The position numbers were made by a program, and so were the translations under genes. From contig NZ_JAAMOZ010000001.1 of the NCBI RefSeq assembly GCF_011758645.1, forward strand, positions 1,736,001-1,800,000: 64,000 nt of DNA, written 5' to 3'. The notes below the pieces were generated by a model, which worked only from the letters and a program-made list of their open reading frames with translations, ran no database searches and was not told where the DNA came from. Source of the stretch: Brooklawnia cerclae. GTDB lineage: Bacteria > Actinomycetota > Actinomycetes > Propionibacteriales > Propionibacteriaceae. This document shows positions 29,689-34,194 of this stretch, in pieces (the first letter of the stretch is position 1; every line of letters starts with the position of its first letter).

Positions 29689-30192
29689 TCAGTGCGTGGC
29701 GGTCGGTTCGAGGTCCTGGTCGCCCAGATCCCCTGCTTCGGCCAGTAGCTCGGTGGCGCGCATCCGGGCGATCTCGTCCAAGAAGTCGTCGACCGAGTTG
29801 TAGTGCTTGTAGACGCTCGCGAAGCGCAGATAGGCCACGGGGTCGAGTTCGCTCAACGGGCCGAGGATGGCCACACCGACGTCCTCCGTCGGGATCTCGG
29901 CCTGGCCGGACGCGCGTACGGCCTCCTCGACAGCCTGCCCGAGCCGTGCCAACTGGGCTTCGGTGACAGGACGCCCCTTGCAGGCCTTCCGGACGCCGGC
30001 TACGACCTTGTCGCGATTGAACGGTTCGACCACACCGGACTTCTTCACCACGACCAGTTGCATCTGCTCGATCGTCGTGAAACGCCGTTCGCATGCCGGG
30101 CACTGACGACGACGGCGGATGCTCGCACCGTCCTCGGAGACCCGGGAGTCGAGCACGCGCGAGTCGCAATGGTGACAATAGGGGCAGTGCAT
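29689..30192 (-). CDS. nrdR: Transcriptional repressor NrdR
   Basis: A 167-residue repressor of ribonucleotide reductase genes. The N-terminal zinc ribbon has Cys3, Cys6, Cys31 and Cys34, followed by the [16 protein letters not shown] motif; an ATP-cone domain that senses ATP/dATP follows ([20 protein letters not shown] onward). Length is normal; the C-terminus is slightly extended and acidic. The ATG at 30192 is chosen because GGAGGAAC lies just upstream; the open frame continues to 30276 without family resemblance. It is first in the nrdR-nrdJ unit, so autoregulation with nrdJ is expected. Confidence 0.95.
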
Positions 30193-30217
30193 CGTTCCTC
30201 CTCGGCTGCCGTGCGTC

Positions 30218-30269
30218 TGTGGATAGCTCTGTGGACATCTTGTGGGTGGTGACCACAATCTGTGGACAA
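30218..30269. promoter_or_regulatory. Three DnaA-box-like sites upstream of nrdR
   Basis: TGTGGATAG (30218-30226), TGTGGACAT (30230-30238) and TGTGGACAA (30261-30269). The last is the reverse complement of TTGTCCACA, a consensus actinobacterial DnaA box; the others differ by one base. TTGTGG-N7-CCACAA (30240-30258) overlaps the cluster. Confidence 0.5.
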
Positions 30270-30281
30270 AAGACATCCGTG

Positions 30282-30317
30282 TAACTACTAGATGTAGGAA
30301 CAGTACATCTTTTGATC
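30282..30317. promoter_or_regulatory. Probable NrdR box pair
   Basis: TAACTACTAGATGTAGGAA (30282-30300) resembles actinobacterial NrdR boxes (CTACATCTAGT on the other strand); a weaker AGTACATCTTTTGATC follows at 30302-30317. NrdR boxes normally occur in pairs upstream of nrd genes. The second box is uncertain. Confidence 0.45.
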
Positions 30318-30386
30318 ATCAAATCAAGGAGGTTTGGGAACGACGCGCGGGGAAACCGGGCGATTCGGCGTGTCGCCGCGATTGCG

Positions 30387-30809
30387 TCAGACGATGTTGC
30401 GCACGACGGCGAAGACCACGCCGATGACACCGACGATGACATACAGCCTGTTCTGCCGCAGGAGCGGACGCGCCCACCGCGGAGGACGAACGGCCGGACC
30501 GCCCAGGGCCTCCACCGCCCACACGACCCCGCAGACGATCAAGACGCCCACGGCCACGACGAACAGTGCATTGAGCGACCATGCGGACGCCACGTCTCCC
30601 CTTGTCAGCCGCAGTGCCGCCCGCGTCGAGCCGCACAATGGGCACTGCAGGCCGGTCAGTTCGCGGAACGGACACGGGACTCCCACTCCCAGGACCGCGT
30701 GAGCGGCAGCGATCGCCCCTCCCACGAGCACGAATGCACCCAGCCTTGTCAACGCGCGACGCGCGGAGAAGGCTGGGAGCACGGGTGCCGGCGCAGACAT
30801 AGTGGCCAT
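30387..30809 (-). CDS. DUF2752 membrane protein
   Basis: A 140-residue membrane protein with three predicted helices. The family signature CPFRELTGLQCPLCGSTRA lies at residues 46-64, with Cys46, Cys56 and Cys59 at a membrane face. Helices cover about 22-44, 79-100 and 122-139. Function unknown; the Cys cluster suggests metal or redox binding. The ATG at 30809 has AAGGA 7 bases upstream. It is divergent from the RDD gene; in other actinobacteria DUF2752 and RDD/CD225-type membrane genes are often close neighbours. Confidence 0.82.
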   Translation of the reverse strand: MATMSAPAPVLPAFSARRALTRLGAFVLVGGAIAAAHAVLGVGVPCPFRELTGLQCPLCGSTRAALRLTRGDVASAWSLNALFVVAVGVLIVCGVVWAVEALGGPAVRPPRWARPLLRQNRLYVIVGVIGVVFAVVRNIV

Positions 30810-30888
30810 TATCCGTCCTTCTGAGCTTCGATGCGACCCATCGGCCCGTAGGATTCAGTGCAGTCACGCAACGCGATTGGAGAATGCT

Positions 30889-32499
30889 GTGAGCAACGAC
30901 TACTGGGGTCGACCGGCCGACCCGAGCCAAGACCCAGCTGGTCACGAGCCTGGGCAGTCGGACCAGGACTCCACCCCGCAGGCTGAGCAGACCCCGACCG
31001 GTGACGGGCAGCCCACATACGGCCAACCCGCTTACGGCCAGCAGCCTTCGCCCAATCAGACCAGCCCCTCCGAGCAGAGCGGCCCATCGGCAGGCTCCTC
31101 GGCCACCTCCGACCCCACTGCCCCCTACGGACAGTCGCCGTACGGAAGCCCTTCCCCTTCGCCCTACGGTTCCGCGCCGTACGGACAGCAGCCCTCCGGG
31201 CAGGCCGGTGCCTACGGGCAGACCGGTGCCACTCCGGCCGGGCAGCCGTCGTCGCCCTACGGCCAGTCGCCGTACGGTCAGACGTCCTACGGACAGTCGT
31301 CGTACGGCCAGTCGTCGTACGGCCAGACCGGCACACCGTCCACCCCGGGGACGAGTTCCACCCCGACCGCGAGCCCCTACGGGACGCCCAGCCCGTACGG
31401 ACAGGCCAGCACCCCCGGCTACGGGCAGGCGGGCACATCGGGCTCCTACGATCAGGCCGGGCAGTCGGGATACGGACAGCCGGGTGCCACCAGTCCCTAC
31501 GACCCGACCGCACAGTCGGGCTACGGACAGCCCACGTACGGGCAGTCGGGATACGGGCAGACACCCTCGTCCCAGTCCCCGTACGGTCAGCAGCCCGCCG
31601 GATCCCCGACCTCGCAGGGATCGCCGAGCTACGGCTCGTCCTACGGGCAGAGCGGCTACGGTCAGACCGGTTCTCCTGCCCAGGACGCCTACGGGCAATC
31701 GTCCGCGTCCCCGACCTCCCAGGGTTCCCCGAGCTACGGTTCCTCGACGTCCTATGGCCAGAGCGGCTACGGACAGACCGGCGCCTACGGACAGGACGCC
31801 AACCAGGCTTCCCCGAACTACGGGCAGACCGGCGCCTACGGGCAGAGCGCGGGCTACGGCACCCCGTCGTACGGGCAGGACGCGGGATATGCGACCCCGG
31901 GCGCTTCCGGCGGCTACGGACAACCCGGCTACCCGCCGCAGGATTCGTACGGGCAGCAGCCGAACTACGGCTACGGCCAGCCCGCATACTCCGGCGAGGT
32001 GTACGGGCCGGTGGGCGCAACCGGTGCGCCGTACGCATCGTGGGGCAAGCGTGCCCTCGGTTGGCTCGTCGACTACCTGGCCCCCGCGATCGTCACGGGG
32101 ATCATCGGCTCGGCGATCAACGGGGTCGCCGGGACGGACTACAACGGTAACGGGATCGGCAACGTGGTCGAGTACGTGCTCTTCTACGGTTTCCTCATCT
32201 ACAACACGGGTTACCTCGGCGGCACCACCGGCCAGTCGTACGGGCGCCGGATCGCGAAGACCCGCCTCGTGGCGGAGTCGACCGGCGCTCCTCTCGGCTT
32301 CGGCATGGGCTTCCTGAGGTTGGTCGCCCACTTCCTCGACAGCCTGATCTGCGGCATCGGCTGGCTGTTCCCGCTGTGGGACGCCAAGCGCCAGACGCTG
32401 GCTGACAAGGTGACGTCCAGCGTGGTCATCGACGAGTCGGTGAGCCCTGTGCCTCCCACCGGCTACCCGCAGCAGCCCCAGCAACCGATGGGATACTGA
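30889..32499 (+). CDS. RDD-family membrane protein with a long Tyr-Gly-Gln-rich N-terminal region
   Basis: A 536-residue protein. Residues 1-40 are polar. About 41-380 are low complexity, made of Tyr, Gly, Gln, Ser, Pro, Thr and Ala, with about 29 YGQ tripeptides in contexts such as SYGQSSYGQ, GYGQ and SPYGQ. Lys and Arg are nearly absent from this part. The C-terminal 150 residues form an RDD domain: KRALGWLVDYLAPAIVTG, a second helix VVEYVLFYGFLIYNTGYLG, GQSYGRRIAKTRLV, and a third helix ending in FPLWDAKRQTLADKV. RDD proteins are small membrane proteins, some transporting ions. The GTG at 30889 has GGAG 6 bases upstream. A double hairpin terminator follows. Confidence 0.9.
   Translation: MSNDYWGRPADPSQDPAGHEPGQSDQDSTPQAEQTPTGDGQPTYGQPAYGQQPSPNQTSPSEQSGPSAGSSATSDPTAPYGQSPYGSPSPSPYGSAPYGQQPSGQAGAYGQTGATPAGQPSSPYGQSPYGQTSYGQSSYGQSSYGQTGTPSTPGTSSTPTASPYGTPSPYGQASTPGYGQAGTSGSYDQAGQSGYGQPGATSPYDPTAQSGYGQPTYGQSGYGQTPSSQSPYGQQPAGSPTSQGSPSYGSSYGQSGYGQTGSPAQDAYGQSSASPTSQGSPSYGSSTSYGQSGYGQTGAYGQDANQASPNYGQTGAYGQSAGYGTPSYGQDAGYATPGASGGYGQPGYPPQDSYGQQPNYGYGQPAYSGEVYGPVGATGAPYASWGKRALGWLVDYLAPAIVTGIIGSAINGVAGTDYNGNGIGNVVEYVLFYGFLIYNTGYLGGTTGQSYGRRIAKTRLVAESTGAPLGFGMGFLRLVAHFLDSLICGIGWLFPLWDAKRQTLADKVTSSVVIDESVSPVPPTGYPQQPQQPMGY
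31010..32010 (+). repeat. Degenerate in-frame coding repeats of the YGQ tail
   Basis: Tandem degenerate TACGGxCAG units with short spacers. One larger duplication of roughly 65 bp is visible: the stretch from about 31602 (coding SPTSQGSPSYGSS) recurs from about 31711 with an added Ser-Thr pair. Codon variation between copies shows the repeats are old or under protein-level selection. Confidence 0.65.
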
Positions 32500-32505
32500 C
32501 ACCTT

Positions 32506-32576
32506 CGTTCGCAGGCGCCCCACAGCGACCTGCGAACGATGCACGAACGGCGCCTGCCCTCGCGGCGGGCGCCGTT
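32506..32576 (+). terminator. Double hairpin terminator after the RDD gene
   Basis: CGTTCGCAGG/CCTGCGAACG (32506-32538), then AACGGCGCCtGCC/GGCgGGCGCCGTT (32546-32576) followed by TCCTG. It lies between convergent genes. Confidence 0.7.
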
Positions 32577-32613
32577 TCCTGTGCACGCAGCTGGACAACG
32601 GATCGGGCCACGA

Positions 32614-33129
32614 TCAGGAAAGACCGGTCGCGGAAGTGGCGTCGAGCGACAGGTACTGCGCACCGATCACCACAAGGCCCAGCACGACCACCAGCGCGAA
32701 CGCGATCATGACCACCGCGAGGCCGCGTTCCGTCAGTCTGATCGGCTGACCGATCACGTCGCGTCGAGCAGCGGGTTGCGATCCGGAAGAGGTGCGCAGT
32801 TGGGTCTGCCGCGAGGACGTCTCCCTCTGCGGCACCGGGGACGCGGGCAACGTGACAGTGGCCCTGTGGACGATGACCCGGCCGGCGACGACCGAGGACC
32901 CTACCAACGGGGCGCCGGGCTGACTCGGGCGGCCACCGGGAGCAAGCGGCCTGGTGACCGCGGACCGTGAACGACGCCGACGCAGTTCCGCCCGCGCTTC
33001 GGGAGTGAGGGGGAACTGCCGGATCACGGCACCTTCCGCGTCGCTCGCCGACGATGCAGCATCGCGGGCGCCCGGCGTCCCTCCGTCGTCATCGCCGACC
33101 TGCTGGAAATGATGAACTGTCGCGCTCAT
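32614..33129 (-). CDS. Single-pass membrane protein divergent from lexA (DivS/YneA-position SOS protein)
   Basis: A 171-residue protein. The first 130 residues are hydrophilic, basic and low in complexity (AELRRRRSRSAVTRPLAPGG); one membrane helix follows at about 136-158 (GLAVVMIAFALVVVLGLVVI) and only 13 residues remain after it. In many actinobacteria the gene divergent from lexA codes for an SOS-induced membrane protein with a LysM or similar extracellular domain that blocks division (DivS, Rv2719c). Here the position, topology and LexA boxes agree, but no LysM domain is present, so function is inferred only from context. The start ATG at 33129 follows GGGGAA. Confidence 0.6.
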   Translation of the reverse strand: MSATVHHFQQVGDDDGGTPGARDAASSASDAEGAVIRQFPLTPEARAELRRRRSRSAVTRPLAPGGRPSQPGAPLVGSSVVAGRVIVHRATVTLPASPVPQRETSSRQTQLRTSSGSQPAARRDVIGQPIRLTERGLAVVMIAFALVVVLGLVVIGAQYLSLDATSATGLS

Positions 33130-33199
33130 GATGTTCCCCCGTCTGTCCGTCTTCCCGGCCGCCGTCTTCCATCCGTTTCAGCACCACGACCCGGCCATG

Positions 33200-33215
33200 T
33201 CGAACATTTGTTCGA
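33200..33215. promoter_or_regulatory. LexA box 1
   Basis: TCGAACATTTGTTCGA, a match to the actinobacterial SOS box, 71 bp upstream of the leftward membrane-protein gene. Confidence 0.85.
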
Positions 33216-33242
33216 TACAAGACTCTAAGCCTTCTCACACCT

Positions 33243-33258
33243 TCGATCAAGTGTTCGA
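33243..33258. promoter_or_regulatory. LexA box 2
   Basis: TCGATCAAGTGTTCGA, a one-mismatch version of the palindrome, between the two divergent genes. Confidence 0.65.
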
Positions 33259-33334
33259 TTCGAAACTCGGTCCGGCGAGTCGTCCACCATCGCACCAGGC
33301 AGGTCTGACATTTTTCACGCAGGTCGCGACATCT

Positions 33335-33350
33335 TCGAACAGGTGTTTGA
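33335..33350. promoter_or_regulatory. LexA box 3, over the lexA promoter
   Basis: TCGAACAGGTGTTTGA, centred about 39 bases upstream of the lexA ATG, over the expected -35 region of the lexA promoter whose -10 is TAGTGT (33370-33375). Confidence 0.8.
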
Positions 33351-33369
33351 ATCCGAGGCGTGTTTTCCC

Positions 33370-33375
33370 TAGTGT
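33370..33375 (+). promoter_or_regulatory. lexA -10 element, leaderless start
   Basis: TAGTGT followed by 6 bases and the lexA ATG, with no Shine-Dalgarno. Predicts transcription from the start codon. Confidence 0.5.
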
Positions 33376-33381
33376 TGTGCC

Positions 33382-34194
33382 ATGATCACAGTCAGGCGTC
33401 CGGGAACAGGCCCCACTCCCCCACGACGGCGAGCAGGTCGTCCCACCGACGAGTCGGTCGCCCGGGAAATGGCCACCTCGGCGTCCATCAGCGAGTTGCC
33501 CGACGGCCCGGCTGATCCCGATGGTCTGACTCCTCGCCAGCGCCGCATTCTCGAGTTCATCCAGGCCACGGTCGAGTCACGGGGCTACCCGCCGACCATC
33601 CGTGAGATGGGTGAAGCCGTCGGGCTCGCCAGCCCGTCCAGCGTGTCGCACCAGCTCAAGGCACTCGAGTCCAAAGGTTTCCTGCGGCGGGATCCGAATC
33701 GTCCCCGGGCGCTTGAGGTCCGCCTTCCCGCGCCGCGCCCGTCGAGCGAGAACATCCTCGCCGGAGTCCCCGACCCGGACGACCCCGCCGACCCGACCGA
33801 CATGGCCGATGCGTTCCCAGTCGCGGTGCAGGTCCCGCTCCTCGGACGAATCGCGGCCGGTGCGCCCATCCTCGCGGAAGAGCAGGTGGAACAGATCATG
33901 CCGCTTCCTCGCCAACTCGTCGGCGACGGCACGTTGTTCATGCTGGAGGTCCGCGGCGACTCCATGGTGGACGCGGCCATCTGCGACGGCGACTATGTCG
34001 TCGTCCGGCAACAGCCCTCGGCCGACAACGGGGCGATCGTCGCGGCGATGATCGACGGCGAGGCCACGGTCAAGACCCTGCAGCGCACTCCCGGGCAGGT
34101 GTGGCTGATGCCGCACAATCCTGCCTATCAGCCGATCGACGGGAACCAGGCAGTCATTCTCGGTAAGGTCGTCGCGGTTCTCCGGCACGTCTGA
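33382..34194 (+). CDS. lexA: SOS repressor LexA
   Basis: A 270-residue SOS repressor. The winged helix-turn-helix covers about 50-112 ([40 protein letters not shown]). The self-cleavage site is Ala159-Gly160 in [13 protein letters not shown]; the catalytic serine is Ser194 in [11 protein letters not shown] and the lysine is Lys231 in GEATVKTLQ. The N-terminus has about 45 extra residues compared with E. coli, as is common in Actinobacteria. Three LexA boxes lie upstream, one over its own promoter. It converges with the dinG-type helicase gene. Confidence 0.97.

Follow-up and report, generated by a model that had tools for sequence, protein, structure and literature searches.

Conserved aromatic density and an exchangeable membrane anchor suggest a functional low-complexity tail on an RDD protein of Brooklawnia cerclae

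Introduction

What could a bacterial membrane protein do with a long N-terminal tail that recalls the tyrosine-rich low-complexity domains of FUS and EWS? The question is raised by a gene of Brooklawnia cerclae (Propionibacteriaceae) located in a window of 64,000 nucleotides, the window being the whole stretch of DNA that was analysed (contig NZ_JAAMOZ010000001.1, positions 1,736,001 to 1,800,000). A preliminary description reported a long tail of Y, G, Q, S, P, T and A with about 29 YGQ tripeptides in front of an RDD membrane domain, and its composition, reading frame, start and coordinates proved correct (Table 1).

The tail-RDD gene and its locus

The tail-RDD gene follows the minus-strand genes nrdJ, nrdR and DUF2752, and is followed by a minus-strand gene for a small protein that has a single hydrophobic segment, then by lexA and a dinG-type helicase. 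As the order nrdR-DUF2752-tail-RDD-lexA is maintained in many Propionibacteriaceae, comparisons of the tail-RDD gene among these are comparisons of true orthologues. A scan of positions 30200-33400 for promoters and terminators placed no site in the divergent stretch that separates DUF2752 from the tail-RDD gene.

Table 1 Features of the tail-RDD locus in coordinates of the window
Feature	Position	Strand	Evidence
Tail-RDD protein gene, 536 aa	30889..32499	+	GTG start, GGAG at 30879-30882, Pfam
N-terminal motif VSNDYWGRP with the sole Trp of the tail	30889..30915	+	Genus/family comparison, genome pattern search
Low-complexity tail, Tyr every 8.5 residues on average, G/S/Q/P/T/A spacers, 29 YGQ	31015..32031	+	
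Internal near-duplication, period 111 bp	31603..31800	+	
RDD membrane domain (PF06271)	32032..32412	+	Pfam, AlphaFold model, charge distribution
Short C-terminal P/Q/Y tail ending PPTGYPQQPQQPMGY, similar across the genus	32434..32496	+	
DUF2752 (PF10825) small protein, divergent neighbour	30387..30809	-	E 1.2e-17
Divergent intergenic region, 79 bp, DUF2752 / tail-RDD	30810..30888	.	
nrdR, syntenic marker	29689..30276	-	
lexA, syntenic marker on the opposite flank	33382..34194	+	

The 3.79-Mb genome encodes four RDD proteins, and a search for a second copy left the tail-RDD gene as the sole YGQ-tail gene. A tandem pair of RDD genes at C1:664988-666184 (L001, L003) is without YGQ tails. The reverse layout is also found in this genome (L004:1471-3003, at C3:56474), with RDD first and then a long Q/P/Y-rich linker leading to what by eye appears to be an FHA domain, and a transglutaminase-like gene adjoining.

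Composition and predicted disorder of the tail

The tail (residues 1-381) is built from 75 G, 65 S, 53 P, 52 Q, 43 Y, 33 A and 32 T, lacks I, L, M, F and C, and carries 17 acidic residues, many of them within its first 75 residues, beside one Arg, one His and no Lys. The earlier view of a tail with almost no charge needs refinement, the net charge being about -16. YGQ occurs 29 times; in 2000 shuffles of the same residues it averaged 1.16 and never exceeded 6. There are 37 YG, and the strict FUS-type motif (S/G)Y(S/G)Q is present 15 times, about half the number of YGQ. A DNA pattern for YGQ-x2-YGQ had nine matches in the whole genome, all nine inside the tail-RDD gene, and its reversed control had none. 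The even spacing of Tyr in this tail was not significant against shuffles (p 0.22), and the same applies to several members of the genus; most tails are more even than their shuffles.

The tail is predicted to be disordered: a single-sequence AlphaFold run gave residues 1-378 no secondary structure, with a pLDDT of 30-45 over most of them, and a Pfam search found no domain in the tail.

The RDD domain and the side of the membrane

Pfam places the RDD domain (PF06271) at residues 382-508 (E 9.3e-17, 62 bits against a cut-off of 24.1). The AlphaFold model built from 93 sequences (pLDDT 83.6) has two long helices, a strand in the loop after them, a helical pair with a break and, at the C-terminus, a second strand; the domain comprises two transmembrane helices and then a probable re-entrant helical pair. 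The two strands are read as pairing, so that the N and C ends would share one side. Mean K+R falls from 1.48 immediately ahead of helix 1 to 0.27 in the loop joining helices 1 and 2 (net -1.06) and reaches 3.62 in the loop joining helices 2 and 3 (net +2.42). Under the positive-inside rule, the basic residues before TM1 and the acidic TM1-TM2 loop would put the tail on the cytoplasmic side, and this prediction from charge and model agrees with the preliminary description, which had assumed a membrane-anchored tail facing the cytoplasm.

Variation of the tail among relatives

The repeated units of the tail differ among relatives and include YGQ, YGT/YGS, GGYEPP/YTPPP and QPGQYGQ. One member of the genus (L011) has YGT/YGS in place of YGQ, and at the same locus L027 carries a mainly Pro/Ala tail, nearly without YGQ, with an aromatic density of 6.9%. 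Tessaracoccus SD287, at an nrdR-DUF2752-lexA locus, has a GWDQSQGQQ tail with 14 Trp and 6 Tyr; this Trp version is nested within the Tyr-tailed Propionibacteriaceae in an RDD tree of 141 columns with many weak forks. Its sequence (L099) is the same as that at L194:4382-5527, where Trp (14) replaces most Tyr and GWDQ is repeated. The tail of Amycolatopsis decaplanina is of the FGQQ type with 11 Phe, and other actinobacteria have FGQQ, poly-Pro with Tyr, or almost no tail. Lengths range from about 64 to 390 residues, with very short tails in Streptosporangiaceae and Dactylosporangium.

Across 68 non-redundant tails, a set that omits tails with at least 37% Pro (mostly mycobacterial), the aromatic fraction was 0.112 with a CV of 0.20, while the CV of the G, P, Q, S, T and A fractions ranged from 0.32 to 0.67, with several-fold differences in Q, S, T and A. 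Aromatic residues are on average about 7-10 apart in most relatives: the tail of the B. cerclae protein has a mean spacing of 8.5, YEPP tails have 7.9-8.9 and the Trp version of Tessaracoccus SD287 has 10.1. YGQ as the conserved unit was rejected, since relatives use YGT, YEPP, GWDQ (Trp) or FGQQ (Phe) instead; as read from these sequences, the conserved property is aromatic density. To the question raised beforehand, whether orthologues share YGQ density rather than exact sequence, the answer is that YGQ is lineage-specific and that aromatic density, not the exact sequence, is kept. Loss of the tail in close relatives, or its replacement by unrelated proline-rich sequence, had been taken in advance to speak against a scaffold. 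No close relative with an RDD gene at the locus lacks the tail; some tails are indeed replaced by proline-rich sequence, and these mostly retain aromatic spacing. The tail-RDD gene is absent in many Propionibacteriaceae, and these losses together with the nearly tailless RDD relatives in other orders indicate that RDD function and viability do not depend on the tail, and that the gene is likewise dispensable.

A long tail on an RDD protein is already a known feature in actinobacteria, an example being the RDD protein Rv2560 of Mycobacterium tuberculosis. Such Pro/Gly-tailed proteins belong to the same RDD family and share a disordered N-terminal tail with Tyr among spacers, and the mycobacterial RDD relatives are 40-45% identical. 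The mycobacterial tails differ in being short, with Pro as the main residue (about 38-48% P), in lacking YGQ and in having no DUF2752 gene alongside.

Selection on the tail

In the closest well-aligned orthologue pair (L036/L037) the tail has a dN of 0.070 and a dS of 0.52 (dN/dS ~0.13), and the RDD domain a dN of 0.043 and a dS of 0.40 (dN/dS 0.11). Other close pairs gave a tail dN/dS of ~0.12-0.27, and the ratio was far under 1 in every computable pair; the near-identical pair G006/G007, with four tail differences, is uninformative in this respect. Tyr was kept at 250 of 256 aligned tail positions in close pairs (98%), compared with 94% for G, 93% for Q, 91% for P, 82% for A and 73% for both S and T. 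Retention in mid-distance pairs was 87% for Tyr, 73% for G, 67% for Q, 66% for P and 35-39% for S, T and A, a set in which the Tyr value is flattered by the weight given to Tyr by the aligner, much more so than in close pairs, just as low-complexity alignment inflates apparent Tyr conservation for distant pairs in general. To judge from its relatives, the tail is a selected feature.

In mammalian FUS the tyrosines are reported to be fully conserved within a fast-evolving domain in which Q-to-P changes occur (PMC7947763), and the tail described here likewise conserves Tyr in a fast-drifting sequence. The likeness to the FET proteins (FUS, EWS and TAF15) lies in Tyr stickers set in low complexity with G/S/Q spacers, where Tyr is kept while the spacers drift and Q and P interchange (PMC7947763). 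In contrast to the FET proteins, the protein of the window has no RRM, RGG or zinc finger (RDD being its only Pfam domain), and it is membrane-anchored and bacterial. Arginine is the partner of Tyr in FUS; the tail differs in having a single Arg and no Lys. A phmmer search of the tail against PDB sequences gave no match at E 10, low-complexity sequence being poorly searchable. The FUS likeness is best read as one of mechanism type rather than of homology: the strict motifs, the YGQ repeats and the type of sticker grammar uphold the comparison that was originally drawn, which breaks down at the missing Arg-rich or RNA-binding part.

Exchange of the membrane anchor

Within one genus (g5), G011 (L188:2712-4463) combines a YGQ tail with RDD, while G136 (L187:3310-4800) combines a YGQ tail (43 Tyr, 22 YGQ) with DUF805 (PF05656, E 4.5e-19), and an RDD search in G136 gave no match. 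The gene of G136 occupies the same locus, divergent from DUF2752-nrdR and facing lexA, and a promoter-like CTGACAGGT-N14-CTAGACTCCGG is found upstream in both. Both tails have YGQSPAYGP near their start, and the N-terminal 80 residues of the two score 4.9 sd over shuffles. A further case (G031) has a YPQPG tail with DUF805 at the nrdR-lexA locus. On this comparison the membrane anchor of the tail is exchangeable: the DUF805 proteins of the family carry the same kind of tail, in G136 also with the same locus and promoter, but on a membrane domain of another family. As YGQ-tailed DUF805 proteins are also present elsewhere in Propionibacteriaceae, recombination between tailed genes offers a simple route. 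Since the tail is preserved through both the change from Tyr to Trp and the swap of the membrane part, it is probably the tail itself that does the work. In another genus a DUF805 protein (L213, G108) opens with MSNDQWGPYN, near the SNDYWGRP of the window despite its different membrane domain.

Linkage to DUF2752

In 65 loci, of which about six are one genome under two ids, a DUF2752 gene is the neighbour of the RDD gene: it lies divergently upstream in 57, upstream on the same strand in seven and downstream on the same strand in one. This linkage in three orientations points to DUF2752 and the tail-RDD protein being functional partners. The 31 loci with upstream sequence but without DUF2752 comprise 28 from Mycobacteriaceae and one each from Allobranchiibius, Acidimicrobiia and Streptomyces. 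The genome of B. cerclae has a single DUF2752 copy, the one adjoining the tail-RDD gene. A search of the accessible literature found no paper on DUF2752, and the tie to tailed RDD and DUF805 proteins gives this family a concrete lead. In several loci of large genomes from the same order (L024, L028, L029, L030, L031), arrays of at least two tandem tailed RDD genes stand beside one DUF2752. A weak tailless RDD match (E 2e-8) adjoins DUF2752 at L171:3450-4032 (G124) and is possibly a decaying copy.

Proposed mechanism and alternatives

We tentatively favour, with a probability somewhat short of even, sticker-driven clustering: a cytoplasmic tail of aromatic stickers and spacers, carried on an exchangeable anchor, would cluster a DUF2752 complex. 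The tail would behave as a cytoplasmic polymer with aromatic stickers every ~8-9 residues and flexible G/Q/S/P/T/A spacers between them, anchored in the membrane through a small domain, RDD in B. cerclae and DUF805 in some relatives, which may cooperate with the product of the adjacent DUF2752 gene. Weak aromatic contacts among many tails, that is, their putative self-association, would probably gather the complexes into membrane clusters, with the conserved N-terminal SN(D/E)xW motif as a possible recruitment site for a partner. The RDD domain could oligomerise as well, by analogy with the RDD protein SppI, which was purified at octamer size (PMC7568657). The clusters would presumably hold a client, and condensation of the tail is what we infer. 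The broader formulation, with the aromatic tail as the functional unit of a membrane scaffold whose sticker, spacers and anchor were exchanged at a kept sticker density, and with a condensate or cluster formed with DUF2752, we regard as rather unlikely. The original suggestion of a candidate scaffold has nonetheless gained evolutionary support, while the FUS label attached to it fails beyond the type of grammar.

An unlikely alternative, though the strongest of those considered, is that the tail acts as a long flexible tether, or entropic spacer, in which SN(D/E)xW docks a cytoplasmic partner to RDD-DUF2752 and Tyr sets only solubility or reach. Across the genus, and in several further Propionibacteriaceae genera, the protein opens with M(S/T)N..W or a near variant; this conservation across genera despite such different tail lengths would suit a tether. 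So would the motif Trp, which is the sole Trp in most motif-bearing tails, the single occurrence of the SNDYWGRP-type pattern in the genome, and the similar N-termini of DUF805 versions (MSNDQW in L213, MTSNW in L196). A plain tether, however, would need neither a Tyr retention far above that of the spacers nor an aromatic density of ~11%, and the motif is missing from many Propionicimonas and other families that retain Tyr tails.

It is distinctly improbable that the tail is extracytoplasmic, forming a mucin-like or wall-interacting stretch that might be O-mannosylated at Ser/Thr near Pro and whose Tyr would touch wall polymers. One study of M. tuberculosis glycoproteins includes Rv2560 in its list (PMC10719292), proline-rich sites are preferred by the M. 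tuberculosis PMT (PMC12331936), and the L187 tail matches Pfam Mucin-like, probably through its composition. Against this, the N-tail of ~380 residues is not preceded by a signal sequence, the charges around TM1 predict an inside location, and few tail residues are less conserved than Ser and Thr.

Very doubtful, too, is a reading that makes RDD a domain for ion antiport or protease inhibition, with a modulating tail that serves, for instance, as a gating or tuning segment. The Arg and Asp residues from which the family takes its name are still present (R29 and D147 invariant, D36 and D139 near-invariant in 93 sequences), a likeness shared with SppI of Bacillus subtilis and the RDD antiporter of Halobacillus. 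SppI binds and inhibits SppA, and Na+/H+ antiport is reported for the Halobacillus protein (PMC7568657); no long tail is described there for either, and SppI itself showed no salt phenotype (PMC7568657). Moreover, at the same locus the tail can be followed by DUF805 in place of RDD, and sppA does not adjoin the tail-RDD gene of the window, the single S49 peptidase of the genome being encoded at C1:1279805, ~490 kb away.

Neutral low-complexity sequence from repeat slippage, which the tandem repeats (15-111 bp units) and their length variation might suggest, was rejected as extremely unlikely on the low dN/dS, with which the Tyr retention of 98%, the mixed Gly codons within YGQ (10 GGG, 9 GGA, 7 GGC, 3 GGT) and the near-duplication agree, the latter having 10 of 10 differences synonymous in an aligned 23-codon block that was picked for its matching peptide and is supportive only.

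The rules that govern aromatic stickers come mainly from work on human and yeast proteins, and a literature search for bacterial membrane-anchored condensates of the sticker-tail sort gave nothing on point. The exchanges of Tyr for Trp, of spacers and of anchors that bacterial evolution has seemingly run at one syntenic locus would provide a natural test set.

Structural resemblance of the RDD model

Pfam scans of the 93 RDD domains returned no peroxin family among the 25 families listed, and a Foldseek search with the RDD model returned nothing significant, its three best matches being Pex chains of 7t92 (E 0.17, 0.32 and 4.4). Compared with the Pex2/10/12 membrane domain of 7t92, the model of the window's RDD domain gave a VIA Z of 9.5 with an rmsd of 4.3 over 146 residues, the next entry reaching a Z of 3.1. 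A remote relation between RDD and the peroxisomal ligase Pex2/10/12, or a shared helical arrangement, is possible on the basis of this model.
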